Shown: positions 34,923 through 46,968 of the stretch, one piece after another
Layout: every line of letters begins with the position of its first letter
How positions within the stretch are numbered: position 1 is the first letter of the stretch
Assembly (NCBI GenBank): GCA_903869725.1
Contig: CAIQAD010000046.1
Span: forward strand, 1 to 53,278
Direction: 5' to 3'
Length of the DNA stretch: 53,278 bases
From: an uncultured Alphaproteobacteria bacterium
GTDB taxonomy: Bacteria; Pseudomonadota; Alphaproteobacteria; Pelagibacterales; Pelagibacteraceae
The notes under the pieces: model-generated
Told to the model about the DNA's origin: nothing
Database searches by the model: none
Seen by the model: only the letters and a program-made list of their open reading frames with translations
Translations under genes and position numbers: made by a program

Positions 34923-34997
34923 GGGCATGTAGTTCAGTGGTGGAATGCTACTTTGACATAGTAGAGGTCGGAAGTTCGATTCTTCCCATGCCCACCA
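34923..34997 (+). tRNA. tRNA-Val (anticodon GAC)
   Basis: Complete cloverleaf: acceptor stem GGGCATG pairs with CATGCCC, the anticodon stem CTACT/AGTAG encloses TTGACAT (anticodon GAC), and the T arm GGAAG-TTCGATT-CTTCC is perfect. The discriminator is A, and the 3' CCA is encoded. It reads GTC and GTT. It starts 5 nt after the DUF3147 gene. Confidence 0.96.
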
Positions 34998-42602: not shown

Positions 42603-42746
42603 TTAAAAATTAAACCAATTATGTTTAAACACAAAGAAACTGTTGTTTCTATTTTTTCTCTGTTCTCTTTGTTTCATAAACTCTTCCTCATTGTTAAACC
42701 AAGGTTTACGTTTAACAATTTTTAATTTAGTAGTATTTTTTTTCAT
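42603..42746 (-). CDS. Small basic protein of unknown function, 47 aa
   Basis: I start at the ATG at 42746 (MKKNTTKLKIVKRKPWFNNE) because AAGGAGG lies 9 nt upstream; an in-frame ATG at 42827 has no such site and reads through the preceding gene. The protein is very rich in Lys, Arg and Asn. It overlaps the preceding gene by 20 nt and is the third member of the unknown operon. Family not recognised. Confidence 0.5.
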   Translation of the reverse strand: MKKNTTKLKIVKRKPWFNNEEEFMKQREQRKNRNNSFFVFKHNWFNF

Positions 42747-43230
42747 TCTTCTTATCCTCCTTCCAACCGTAAGCAGAGCCAAGTTTACCTTTATTGATCG
42801 GTTCATAAGCATTGACCCAACGTCCATACCTACTCCAATCAGTGCGCGGCTTATGTTCTACAAACGAACTTATGTTCTTTGCTGCAATTGCCTTTTCTAA
42901 CTCTAACTTACGTTCAGCTGCTTTAGTCGTTTGATAAACAGTAAGTTCATCCGCTGCACTAGTTGTTTGCTCTTCAACCTTTTCAGCTACAGGACAAGCA
43001 GTAGATGGTAGTTTAACTTTTTTGCCAGTCATTGCTTGATAGCGCATAGGATCATTGACCATCATGTAAGGTCCCCATGTTGCAACAAACTGATCACACA
43101 CATTTTTTATCTGCTGTTTAAAGTTTGGCTTTGTTTTGACACGGCTTAAACTTTGATAACGAGGATTATTTAATAAAACTCTTTTATTACGCCCGTAATA
43201 ACTGATTTTATAGTCTAGAATCTTACTCAT
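42727..43230 (-). CDS. Protein of unknown function, 167 aa
   Basis: Soluble, basic, with no membrane segment or recognised domain. The N-terminal part (1-85) has YKISYYGRNKRVLLNNPRYQ and a short segment YMMVNDPMRYQAMTGKK. The C-terminal part (100-167) is a charged helix followed by a Trp/Tyr-rich end (WSRYGRWVNAYEPINKG). The ATG overlaps the stop of the upstream gene by 1 nt, so the two are coupled. Possibly of mobile origin given the context. Confidence 0.55.
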   Translation of the reverse strand: MSKILDYKISYYGRNKRVLLNNPRYQSLSRVKTKPNFKQQIKNVCDQFVATWGPYMMVNDPMRYQAMTGKKVKLPSTACPVAEKVEEQTTSAADELTVYQTTKAAERKLELEKAIAAKNISSFVEHKPRTDWSRYGRWVNAYEPINKGKLGSAYGWKEDKKNEKKYY

Positions 43231-43781
43231 TATTTACCGCCTTTTCTTCTTTTATTTTGAGCTTTAAGAAGAAGATCTTCATACAACTGAACTCGACTTA
43301 TTAATCGGCCTTCAATTGTATTTAACTTTAGCAAAGAACTTCCAGCATTAGAGTCTCTAGTGAATGCAACCCCAATCAAAGACTGGTTCTTCAAAACTTT
43401 ATTTTGATCTCCTCTTTTAAAATCAGGATGAGAAATATTTGAAGACAATGTAGGTTTATATTTGTCTTTGTCATACTCAAGTATTTCATTGCCAAATATG
43501 CCAGTCTCAATTAACCCCACTCTTCTTAATCGCCATAAAAACTCAACCAGCTTTATAAAGATTTCTTCCTCGTACGCACCTCGAGGTCGATAGGTTTTAA
43601 ACATGCTGTCTTTTAAAGTATTAAACTCTTCAATACTTTCGCCAATGATCACATGCTTTTCTGCCGTTAATCCATGGCTTAAGGCATTGCCACTTACTAT
43701 TTGTTTTCCCGAAACTGATTTCGGGCCTGTTGATTTTAGAGCGTTTAATCTGTTTGCTCTAATTTTCTTTTTACTAGACAT
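43230..43781 (-). CDS. Conserved hypothetical protein with a GPKS-GK-NALxHGLTA motif, 183 aa
   Basis: The N-terminus (about 7-45) holds NRLNALKSTGPKSVSGK followed by NALSHGLTA, a pattern I recognise from a widespread family of unknown function in several bacterial phyla. Next comes a helical segment (YRPRGAYEEEIFIKLVEFLWRLRR) also typical of it. The AAGGAGA ribosome site is strong. First gene of the three-gene operon; a promoter candidate lies about 140 nt upstream. No function is assigned. Confidence 0.6.
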   Translation of the reverse strand: MSSKKKIRANRLNALKSTGPKSVSGKQIVSGNALSHGLTAEKHVIIGESIEEFNTLKDSMFKTYRPRGAYEEEIFIKLVEFLWRLRRVGLIETGIFGNEILEYDKDKYKPTLSSNISHPDFKRGDQNKVLKNQSLIGVAFTRDSNAGSSLLKLNTIEGRLISRVQLYEDLLLKAQNKRRKGGK

Positions 43782-44038: not shown

Positions 44039-44356
44039 TTATGGGATATAATATATTTTTTCTCCTGATTTTAATGGGGTATTGCTGTCATCTTTTTTAA
44101 AAGCAGACTCATAACGTTCGCTGTTAATCCCAGCGGCATTATCTCTAATTTCAATCTCATTTCCTGATAAATTTATTTTAATTTTTAATTTATAATCAGG
44201 ATTAATTCTTTTAAGAATTTTTTTGTTAGTTAAATAGCTTTGAATTGAATTGTCTACAAATTCAGCAAGCGCGTACCACTCAGTGTATCTCATATTCTTT
44301 AGGAGTCCCAAAAGGCTTACTGTGGGTGCAATATTTAATTTTTGAATATCTTTCAT
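44039..44356 (-). pseudogene. GHKL (HSP90/MORC-like) ATPase, N-terminal remnant
   Basis: 105 aa. It keeps the start of a GHKL ATPase: ALAEFVDNSIQSY (about 30-42, with the Glu and Asn of the N-box) and EIRDNAAGI (about 71-79, the G1 box DxAxG). It then ends after about 100 residues, before the Gly-rich lid and everything beyond; the last ten residues do not match the fold. Such ATPases occur beside helicases in MORC-type restriction and defence loci. It is truncated and unlikely to work. Confidence 0.7.
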
Positions 44357-44394: not shown

Positions 44395-44748
44395 CTAATA
44401 ATCTATATAAATTTTATAATTCAATATCTTGCAAAAGTTATTAAGCAAAATTAATTGATTTATACTTCTTGGATAAACATCTAATAATTTAGGATTAAAA
44501 ATAATAATCGATATTAACTGTGATCTTGAGATAGAAACATTCAATCTATTTTTATCAAAAAGGAAGTCTAAATTTCTAGGCAAACATTCAGGATCTGAAC
44601 TTGTCATAGATACGATAGTAATTGATCCTTGTTGTCCTTGAAATTTATCGATCGTTCCCATTTTTGCTAATTTTTTAAATTTAGAAGTTAAGAAATTTGT
44701 TTGAATATTATAAGGACTAACAACAAGTATATCTTCTTTAGATATTAA
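44395..44748 (-). pseudogene. DNA2/NAM7-type SF1 helicase, C-terminal remnant
   Basis: The open frame enters after a stop at 44749 and has no proper start. The readable frame includes DILVVSPYNIQTNFL and then MGTIDKFQGQQ (helicase motif V region: T-x-D-x-F-Q-G-Q), NRLNVSISRSQ (motif VI region) and a short tail. This is the last 115 or so residues of a helicase of the AAA_12/TM0106-nuclease-fusion type. The break point coincides with the 72-bp repeat at 44751. Confidence 0.75.
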
Positions 44749-44750
44749 TT

Positions 44751-44822
44751 ATCTTTAAAAATTACTACTAAGCTAGGTAGAGGCTTATTTAAGCCCCTAC
44801 TCATCTAATAATTAATTTATTT
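44751..44822. repeat. 72-bp direct repeat, copy 1, with terminator-like hairpin
   Basis: Identical to 45734-45805 except for one base (T versus C inside TACtCAT/TACcCAT). It covers the stop codon of the hydrolase gene and abuts the broken end of the helicase remnant. Positions 44777-44800 form a 10-bp hairpin (GTAGAGGCTT with AAGCCCCTAC, one wobble, loop ATTT) suited to end transcription on the minus strand. Confidence 0.9.
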
Positions 44823-45614
44823 TAGTAATTCATTTAATGGTTCAGAAATAACTGAAACTGTATTCACTCCATTATGATCTAAACCAGCAAGAATTTTGTA
44901 TTGAGCATTAATATTAAGATCCGTTAATGATTTAATATAATCTAACGCAAGTACGTCAGCCGTATTGTTGTCATTGCTGCCTGTGATTGCAAATACTTTG
45001 GTTGTTTTTGGAATATTTTTAATAAAATCACTTGGTGACAACGAAAAATAACGAGACGACGCGCCCCTCATAAATCTCCAACTACTAATATTGCAAGGGC
45101 ATGCAAGTAATATTGCGCCTTCTGCAATGCCAGGAGTACGTCCAATCATTATACCGCTAGTCGCCGCTCCACCCGAATGTCCAATAAGAATAGTTTTAGT
45201 AGGTTTGTAATAATTTTTAAGAGATTGGACTGCAGCAGTCATCTCATCCAAATTTGTTGTTGTGTAACAATCACGTCTTCCACAATCACTTCCTGAAGAT
45301 TTATTATTTTGGTTATCAAAGTATCCAGGTCGCAAAATTGCAACTTTAACAGTTCCAGCGGGCACTTCTACTTTTTCAGCATTTCTAATCATGCCAACTA
45401 CAGGACCATTATCACTTTGATCGCCATGGATAAAAATTACTAAATTTTTTATTTTTGTTTCAGGATTTTTTTTAAAAGTATGAATAGCTAAACACTCATC
45501 TTTTCCAGTAACACGAGTTACTTTATCATTTAAACATTCAACTGATTGTGCCGAAGATATTAAAAATAGTTCTGAGCACAAAATAAAACTAAATAATATA
45601 AAAAGTTTTTTCAT
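44817..45614 (-). CDS. Secreted alpha/beta hydrolase
   Basis: 265 aa. A signal peptide (hydrophobic 4-20, cleavage probably after SAQS, about 24) precedes an alpha/beta hydrolase domain. The oxyanion strand is FIHGDQSDNGP (61-71), the nucleophile elbow GHSGG has Ser147, the acid may be Asp215 region (TGSNDNN), and the base is His247 (AGLDHNG). Substrate unknown; esterase or dienelactone-hydrolase-like. Both flanks carry the 72-bp repeat, and the 3' end lies inside copy 1, so it sits in a 983-bp repeat-delimited unit. Confidence 0.78.
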   Translation of the reverse strand: MKKLFILFSFILCSELFLISSAQSVECLNDKVTRVTGKDECLAIHTFKKNPETKIKNLVIFIHGDQSDNGPVVGMIRNAEKVEVPAGTVKVAILRPGYFDNQNNKSSGSDCGRRDCYTTTNLDEMTAAVQSLKNYYKPTKTILIGHSGGAATSGIMIGRTPGIAEGAILLACPCNISSWRFMRGASSRYFSLSPSDFIKNIPKTTKVFAITGSNDNNTADVLALDYIKSLTDLNINAQYKILAGLDHNGVNTVSVISEPLNELLK

Positions 45615-45733
45615 TTAAAGTATTTTTCATTATTTTTTACAGGCATAAATTTTTAACCCCCAATAATTTAGCAACAAAAGCTTATTTAGATAAAAATACT
45701 TAGTAAAAATACTTTATATACTTATATTTAAAA

Positions 45734-45805
45734 ATCTTTAAAAATTACTACTAAGCTAGGTAGAGGCTTATTTAAGCCCCTACCCATCTAATAATTAATT
45801 TATTT
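45734..45805. repeat. 72-bp direct repeat, copy 2, with terminator-like hairpin
   Basis: Second copy, offset by 983 bp from copy 1 and in the same orientation. It carries the last codons and stop of hsp20, in a different reading frame from the use made by the hydrolase gene. The hairpin is at 45760-45783, 12 nt after the hsp20 stop. The stretch between this copy and the hydrolase gene (45615-45733) holds a short doubled AAAAATACTT and nothing else I recognise. Confidence 0.9.
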
Positions 45806-46250
45806 CAATCGTTCTTGATTTTTTAGACTCAGGAATAATTCTCTCTAAAGAGATTTTTAACAAACCATCTTTCAACTGCGCCCCTTTGATTTCTGTATCA
45901 TCAGAGACTGTGAAAGTTTTGCTAAAGTATCTTTTAGAAATACCTTGATGAATAACCTCATTATTTTCATCTTTATTCTCAGTCTTATTTTCCTTAATAG
46001 ATTTTATCTTCAAAAGACCATCTGCATATTCAATGCTGATATCTTTCTTAGAAAAACCAGCCAAAGCCAATTCAATATCATAGGTATAGTCACCTGTTTT
46101 AACGATATTGTATGGTGGATAATTTACTAGAGATGATTCAAAGTCATTGTCTTCGAACATTCTCTCAAAATTATCAAATAAATTATCATAACCAATTGAA
46201 ATAGGCTTCAACTGATTAAAGATAGATAGGCTTCCATTTAGTTTGTTCAT
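45795..46250 (-). CDS. Small heat shock protein, Hsp20/IbpA family
   Basis: 151 aa holdase chaperone. An N-terminal arm (1-45) is followed by the alpha-crystallin domain (about 48-140), with DYTYDIELALAGFSKKDISIEY and GLLKISLERIIPE, and a C-terminal IEIN tail resembling the IxI anchor. AAGGAG lies 7 nt before the ATG. The leader has a sigma-32-like promoter and a ROSE-like hairpin covering the ribosome site, so it is probably induced by heat at both levels. Confidence 0.92.
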   Translation of the reverse strand: MNKLNGSLSIFNQLKPISIGYDNLFDNFERMFEDNDFESSLVNYPPYNIVKTGDYTYDIELALAGFSKKDISIEYADGLLKIKSIKENKTENKDENNEVIHQGISKRYFSKTFTVSDDTEIKGAQLKDGLLKISLERIIPESKKSRTIEIN

Positions 46251-46303
46251 TGTGTTTCTCCTTATTTAAGCGAGTTAGGTAAGTCCCACTAAGGCAACTT
46301 ACT
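46251..46303 (-). promoter_or_regulatory. ROSE-like RNA thermometer in the hsp20 leader
   Basis: On the minus strand CTCGCTT (46274-46268) can pair with AAGGAG (46264-46259) across the loop AAAT, leaving one G bulged opposite the Shine-Dalgarno. This is the hallmark of ROSE elements (U-U/C-GCU against AGGA). A second hairpin just upstream is GTAAGT/ACTTAC (loop 12 nt). ROSE elements are known before small heat shock genes of alphaproteobacteria. Structure is predicted by eye only. Confidence 0.6.
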
Positions 46304-46309
46304 CTGTAT

Positions 46310-46337
46310 GAAATGGGTAATTATTTTTAATTTCCAA
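46310..46337 (-). promoter_or_regulatory. Candidate sigma-32-type promoter of hsp20
   Basis: On the minus strand TTGGAAA (46337-46331) and CCCATTTC (46317-46310) are 13 nt apart, close to the heat-shock consensus CTTGAAA-N11-16-CCCCATnT. The start would fall about 50 nt before the hsp20 ATG, giving exactly the leader that carries the ROSE-like hairpin. Confidence 0.45.
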
Positions 46338-46413
46338 TATCAAAAAAAATTTATTTTTAAGCCCCTTGAAAATCTAAAATTTATTATTAAGACTTAATTT
46401 AATTTTTTAATTG

Positions 46414-46439
46414 AAAAAAGGAGGCCTTTGCCTCCTTTT
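46414..46439 (-). terminator. Rho-independent terminator of the upstream RNA
   Basis: GGAGGC-AAAG-GCCTCC (six GC-rich pairs, extended by A/T) followed by six T on the minus strand. It is the strongest terminator in the window. It lies 164 nt before hsp20 with no protein gene directly before it, so it must end the candidate RNA of 46440-46646. Confidence 0.8.
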
Positions 46440-46537
46440 AAGAGTTTTAATAAAAAACTTCAGGAAAAATTTAGAATGGACCTTATTGTTGAGAGCTAAG
46501 GATCCGTAGGCTCTTATTCGATAGTTACACTTTCAAT

Positions 46538-46573
46538 TCAAGTGTAAGGTAGTGGCAACGTATTTACTTTCAT
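46538..46573 (-). CDS. 11-codon leader ORF inside the candidate RNA
   Basis: ATG at 46573, four nt after the strong ribosome site GGAGGGG, encodes MKVNTLPLPYT and then TGA. The stop codon falls inside the 5' arm of the 8-bp hairpin, and GTAGG next to the ribosome site can pair with CCTAC downstream (46511-46507 area). The layout recalls an attenuator leader peptide, but no amino-acid run that would sense a particular tRNA is obvious. Confidence 0.35.
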   Translation of the reverse strand: MKVNTLPLPYT

Positions 46574-46659
46574 TTCCCCTCCTACATAAAAATATCTGCC
46601 GAGTTGCTTTTAAAGTCAAATTACCCTCAACAATAATGCTTTAACAAATAAGCATTATA

Positions 46660-46968
46660 GATGAGCAGTTTAGCTATACATTAAGGCAGAGCTTTAAGTT
46701 TTAAATTTAAAACACTATTGTTTTATAAGCCTTTTTAAACTCTTCAGTAGCTGTAAAAGAAATATAGAAATAAAAACAATTATTTAAAATTGTTTAACTT
46801 TTTAAATTTAAGAGTAATATTTTCGCATCTTTTTTTTCAAAATTAAAATCCCAGATTTATTCATTTTTTTCTAAAAATAGTTCATTAGAATAATTACAAT
46901 CAACAATCAGCTGATTGAGAATAAAAAAGCCTGTAGCGTTAAAATAAAAAAATAATCTCGCTTAATTA
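46660..46968. other. Gene-free stretch with two perfect palindromes
   Basis: Between the candidate RNA and the Old Yellow Enzyme gene I see no coding frame. GTTTTAAATTTAAAAC (46698-46713) is a 16-bp palindrome and CAATCAGCTGATTG (46904-46917) a 14-bp palindrome. Both lack a loop and look like protein-binding sites rather than hairpins. The rest is AT-rich with no other signal. Confidence 0.5.

Follow-up and report, generated by a model that had tools for sequence, protein, structure and literature searches.

It is poorly understood how the very abundant SAR11 bacteria, whose genomes are small and have tiny spacers and few mobile elements, gain genes, and one locus of an uncultured member of the Pelagibacteraceae bears on this question. 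In the window (the whole stretch of DNA analysed, 53,278 nucleotides, contig C46 among the 55 that make up a 96.8%-complete draft genome of 1.08 Mb), a gene for a secreted hydrolase lies just downstream of hsp20, between two nearly identical segments that hold the ends of both genes. We thus ask here how the hydrolase gene came to stand in this position, which of the two segments is the older and what the arrangement shares with known systems of gene addition. The features concerned are as follows.

34923..34997, + strand: tRNA-Val(GAC), which borders the hsp20-bearing variable region on the left; synteny with the sister genome G003 ends next to it
44039..44356, − strand: N-terminal fragment of a GHKL-type ATPase (PF13589, 27.4 bits), debris beyond the helicase remnant
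44395..44750, − strand: remnant (C-terminal part) of a RecB-nuclease/helicase, truncated where repeat copy 1 ends; 74% to an intact 1125-aa protein in G001 and 72% to a second copy on contig C12 of the same genome
44751..44822, − strand: repeat copy 1, the secondary one, with the hydrolase stop codon and a 3′ hairpin; abuts the helicase remnant
44817..45614, − strand: secreted alpha/beta hydrolase of 265 aa, Peptidase_S9-like (PF00326, 26.8 bits), with a C-terminus of full length against its homologues
44823..45733, − strand: unique DNA between the repeats, 911 bp, holding one gene; with one repeat copy it makes the 983-bp unit
45615..45733, − strand: 119-bp region upstream of the hydrolase, presumed promoter, with a weak sigma-70-like match (45656-45629) that is no better than chance
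45734..45805, − strand: repeat copy 2, the native one, with the last 11 bp of hsp20 and a 3′ hairpin
45795..46250, − strand: hsp20, the host gene with the duplicated 3′ end (PF00011, 61.9 bits); orthologues in G003 and G004 are 83% identical

The initial annotation had described 72-bp direct repeats around the hydrolase, one base apart and in the same orientation, and this is borne out: the copies are identical at 71 of 72 positions, their starts are 983 bp apart and, when flanking near-matches are counted, the pair reaches 78 bp at 96%. Exact repeats reach 50 bp in the variable part of the window but no more than 19 bp in 100 first-order shuffles, and the 31-bp core of the repeat has a chance expectation of 0.00 occurrences. 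Across the whole 1.08-Mb genome, the search for further copies that the annotation had proposed returned these two only, the next-best match being 19 bp long, so that the reading of the repeat as a common terminator is ruled out. A scan of 485 kb outside the window, with which about half of the genome was covered, gave no further direct repeats with a length of 35 bp or more and an identity of 85% or more. The hydrolase and hsp20 have their stop codons (44817-44819 and 45795-45797, respectively) inside the repeat copies, in different frames, and each copy gives a long hairpin when folded as the coding (minus) strand (−25.9 and −19.3 kcal/mol, with z of −4.9 and −2.9), in agreement with the stop codons and terminator-like hairpins that had been noted. 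The hairpin is without a directly adjoining U-run and "terminator-like" is thus the apt wording; its conservation and position suggest that transcription would end there. The repeat is the 3′ end of hsp20 and has no tRNA, tmRNA or Rfam match, and no GTTRRRY box is evident in it by eye. As regards a transposon or insertion sequence, no inverted pair links both ends of the insert, the duplication is 72 bp long and the unit holds the hydrolase as its sole gene, with no transposase.

Comparison with relatives shows the copy behind hsp20 to be the original. The hsp20 orthologues in G003 and G004, which belong to the same genus, and in L180 are followed by a single copy of homologous sequence with the hairpin (GAAATAAATTAA...AGATGGGTAGGGGC...GCC...), and a hairpin of the type TAGAGGC..GCCTCTA occupies the same position after hsp20 in many other genera of the Pelagibacteraceae (SAR11). 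Among 13 species, 7 of the 12 predicted base pairs have been altered on both sides with the pairing intact; the hairpin is thus conserved as part of the 3′ end of hsp20. At the sole mismatch between the two copies, copy 2 carries the base of three close relatives (GATGGG) and copy 1 a derived one (GATGAG), which marks the hydrolase copy as secondary. With a hairpin native to hsp20 and a derived base in the hydrolase copy, the feature is thus a one-gene insert between duplicated ends of a host gene. We put the probability that it arose by insertion with duplication of the hsp20 end at about 0.88.

The hydrolase itself has a narrow distribution. It is absent from all 12 same-genus genomes, and matches occur in 20 of the 397 family genomes drawn, its own included, the other 19 at 31-37% identity. 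Its best match in the class (44%) is in a 5.4-Mb alphaproteobacterium outside SAR11, and the gene was thus probably acquired horizontally; a patterned search of GTDB species genomes and virus contigs returned no close relatives. Its C-terminus ends at the same point as those of its homologues, and the junction therefore lies at the natural stop of the gene. Base composition gives no strong signal, with 31% G+C in the insert and 30.5% in the window.

The surroundings of the unit are themselves variable. Positions 1-34.6 kb of the window are collinear with the complete sister genome G003 and this order is broken from tRNA-Val (34923) onward, which places hsp20 in a variable region. In genus g4, the same tRNA-Val beside rpoD borders a site where different genes lie between tRNA-Met and tRNA-Val. 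The pair of neighbouring ORFs at 42727-43781, which belong to no known family, is also present close to hsp20 in L180 (1019-2117) and G003 (127279-128309). Between hsp20 and an FMN oxidoreductase gene, about 700 bp (46280-46968) are free of genes, which is long for a streamlined genome; the gap has no Rfam match and holds a GGAGGC..GCCTCC hairpin near 46420-46438. On the other side of the unit, the remnant becomes homologous to the intact 1125-aa helicase about 10 bp or less from where copy 1 ends, in agreement with the earlier observation that copy 1 coincides with the helicase break. This break forms another junction at that position and gives no date for the event. A second helicase C-terminus, 72% identical, lies on contig C12 (L135, 2605-3408) beside a C5 DNA methylase gene, where it is cut by the contig end. 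The helicase and ATPase pieces are truncated debris, and a reading of the region as a defence system is ruled out.

The initial annotation had also proposed comparison with genomes that carry hsp20 and lack the hydrolase, where one repeat copy next to an intact helicase would support insertion. The same-genus relatives do carry one hairpin copy behind hsp20 and no hydrolase, but their neighbours differ on the far flank and no intact helicase adjoins. The exact empty site, with hsp20, one repeat copy and an adjoining intact helicase, was not found in the species-level collections, in which each species is represented by a single genome; within the genus, hsp20 is followed by different genes.

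Homologues of the hydrolase elsewhere in SAR11 are themselves often flanked by repeats. At least 8 of the 19 family loci have the homologue between direct repeats of the tmRNA (ssrA) end (G029, G030, G398, G424, G186 and G198) or of tRNA-Leu(TAA) (G214 and G250), and tmRNA and tRNA genes are classical targets of recombinases. The unit in G030 is 986 bp long and contains the hydrolase only, its outer repeat being degraded (16 of 19 bases). A 19-base tmRNA-end pattern occurs in 341 of the 397 family genomes, in up to 8 copies that are often co-oriented and clustered, and a reversed control pattern gave zero in every row listed. The units between such repeats span 0.2-2.6 kb and mostly hold one to few ORFs. 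That the same cargo family recurs in repeat-flanked tmRNA and tRNA units suggests a shared route.

Several further observations concern these arrays and islands. Small gene units arrayed in tandem and in one orientation, with tmRNA ends between them, are found at G066:C7 11205-18168 and in L335, L337, L350, L358, L362, L050 and L140; the arrays, present in many Pelagibacteraceae, look integron-like, with no integrase adjoining in the stretches read. The literature searched gave no direct description of ssrA cassettes or hypervariable-region repeats in SAR11. Consecutive genes for unrelated small secreted proteins in L140 (7998-9354), L050 (1474-2684) and L051-L060 begin with a near-identical stretch of 40-60 bp (MKKLLAIVVLGLL...), which looks like one signal-peptide start that was reused, or exchanged by recombination, among them. 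The island at G075:C1 342989-354320 (L145), 11 kb long and next to tRNA-Val and rpoD, carries a helicase gene, two for C5 DNA methylases and several others. It was not counted among the comparable cases: the 54-bp repeat that bounds it is the 5′ half of tRNA-Met, which is classical and of a known kind.

A second one-gene insert was found in the sister species G003, where a 63-bp repeat with a spacing of 906 bp surrounds a single methyltransferase gene between the pal gene and a lipoprotein gene (C1 92633-93601, L065). It was the sole other pair in a first scan of this genome for pairs of at least 40 bp, 85% identical and within 20 kb; a looser scan returned more repeats, which come from tandem paralogues, and one further unexplained pair. 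In a third species (G008:C4, L167 1501-2501), the pal and lipoprotein genes flank a single copy with no methyltransferase, and the site is thus empty. The duplicated 63-bp segment is ordinary upstream DNA, neither the 3′ end of a gene nor a hairpin. One set of tandem paralogues in G003 (C1 157466-159114, with copies at 157466-158209 and 158333-159049) is about 65% alike in DNA with terminators 89% alike, which suggests conservation or conversion of the terminators.

Searches for an enzyme and for a carrier gave the following picture. The integrase search that had been proposed came back empty, with no match to PF00589 or PF00239 (tyrosine and serine recombinases) in the 96.8%-complete draft. 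PF00589 is matched in 13 of 20 SAR11 relatives, once or twice each, most commonly by a protein of about 317 aa that scores far below the Xer cut-offs, and the absence from the draft may be due to a gap in the assembly. The hsp20-end sequence, sought as a possible attP, occurs in no virus contig. The virus contigs that bear tmRNA ends hold complete phage tmRNAs, with no SAR11 integrase matches in the stretches read.

Turning to how the insertion took place, we somewhat favour recombination, in which a single-gene cassette would have been added just downstream of hsp20 by crossover of a circle of about 983 bp, and in our reading the locus holds an additive-island type of gene cassette, unusually joined to the terminator hairpin of a protein gene. 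We infer a circle, a recombinase and an order of events along these lines. A circle comprising the hydrolase and a copy of the hsp20 end would have integrated, as the most likely route, by crossover within the 72-bp segment, brought about by a tyrosine recombinase in trans (supplied by a phage or a helper island, or encoded in a part of the genome that the draft lacks) or by homologous recombination; the 10-bp inverted arms of the hairpin could form the core site and would suit a tyrosine recombinase. Copy 2 still ends hsp20, and copy 1 ends the acquired hydrolase gene. Both genes retain a stop codon and a 3′ hairpin, and the insertion therefore need not harm hsp20. The restriction of the repeat to two copies genome-wide, the native hairpin, the derived base in the hydrolase copy, the absence of the hydrolase from the genus and its best class match outside SAR11, the repeat-flanked relatives, the arrays at tmRNA in many family genomes and the insert in G003 with its empty site in G008 all speak for such a cassette. 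Against it stand the lack of a recombinase in the draft, of an exact empty site at hsp20 and of a virus contig with the site, as well as the low identity (31-37%) of the repeat-flanked SAR11 homologues; furthermore, the duplication of ordinary upstream DNA in G003 is not predicted by an att model. Of what was first suggested, the addition of a unit of about 983 bp at the hsp20 terminator is supported by the two-copy repeat, by the relatives with one terminator copy and no hydrolase and by the repeat-flanked relatives of the hydrolase, though not by an exact empty site. Integration of a circle at an att-like site is plausible, but the genome gave no tyrosine or serine recombinase and no virus contig has the site.

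The same lack of a tyrosine or serine recombinase leaves room for errors of repair copying, as does the duplication of ordinary DNA in G003, where the methyltransferase insert has the same geometry with 63 bp duplicated. In such an illegitimate insertion, DNA synthesis during repair or replication of the hsp20 end would have switched to a stray hydrolase fragment, returned 72 bp upstream of its point of departure and recopied the terminator, using neither an att site nor a recombinase, and the product would have survived because the 3′ module of hsp20 was preserved. We hold this to be rather unlikely and yet the most serious rival, given that hydrolase relatives recur between tmRNA or tRNA repeats, that the duplicated piece is a functional module of gene end and hairpin and that the junction falls at the natural stop of the hydrolase. 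The tandem paralogues of G003, with terminators so much more alike than their genes, bring to mind old copies kept alike by gene conversion, in which case the hydrolase and the terminator duplication would be separate events, such as a tandem duplication of hsp20 and its terminator with later replacement of the gene; hsp20 and the hydrolase, however, belong to unrelated families, several steps are needed and no second hsp20 remnant lies between the copies, which makes this improbable. An assembly artefact, with two loci joined at a shared 72-bp sequence, is even less probable: the draft is in 55 contigs and misjoins usually occur at repeats, but the copies differ by one base, so that two distinct loci would exist anyway, and 72 bp is shorter than usual read lengths.

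If a cassette was added as we propose, a one-gene insert that brings along a copy of the host terminator shows how gene addition can spare the neighbour. More tentatively, SAR11 might possess a system of cassette shuffling, in which small circles without a recombinase, many of them carrying one gene, would be inserted in trans at gene ends that can fold (tmRNA, tRNA and the terminator hairpins of protein genes such as hsp20). Were this doubtful extension true, a strong terminator could become an attachment site, and each cassette would bring a ready terminator with it.

Among known systems, additive flexible genomic islands with gene cassettes at tRNA genes have been described in Actinomarinales (PMC7771536) and at tRNA-Lys in Methylopumilus (PMC10872708). 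The hsp20 unit resembles these in its small cargo, its streamlined marine genome, its cargo that varies between relatives and its direct repeats of a host gene segment, one copy of which is native. It differs in that it targets a protein gene, at its 3′ end with the terminator hairpin, rather than a tRNA and in being a single insert, not an array; neither a tRNA or tmRNA target nor an associated integrase or transposase is present, and an enzyme may have acted in trans. Tycheposons are 4-200 kb long, bordered by tRNAs and associated with tyrosine recombinases (PMC10872708); they, too, occur in streamlined marine bacteria and have their cargo at a favoured site of the host, whereas the unit here is 983 bp long and has neither recombinase nor tRNA. 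Integron cassettes (an ORF with attC) are alike in having one ORF and a foldable 3′ repeat that contains the stop codon. The hsp20 case, on the other hand, has no integron integrase and no PF00589 match at all, which rules out an integron, and its repeat is the native hsp20 hairpin, varying with hsp20 between species. The SAR11 units at tmRNA ends and tRNA-Leu differ from it in target sequence, in the 31-37% identity of their hydrolases and in often holding several genes per unit, but they share the cargo family and, in the hydrolase-only unit of G030, nearly the same length.
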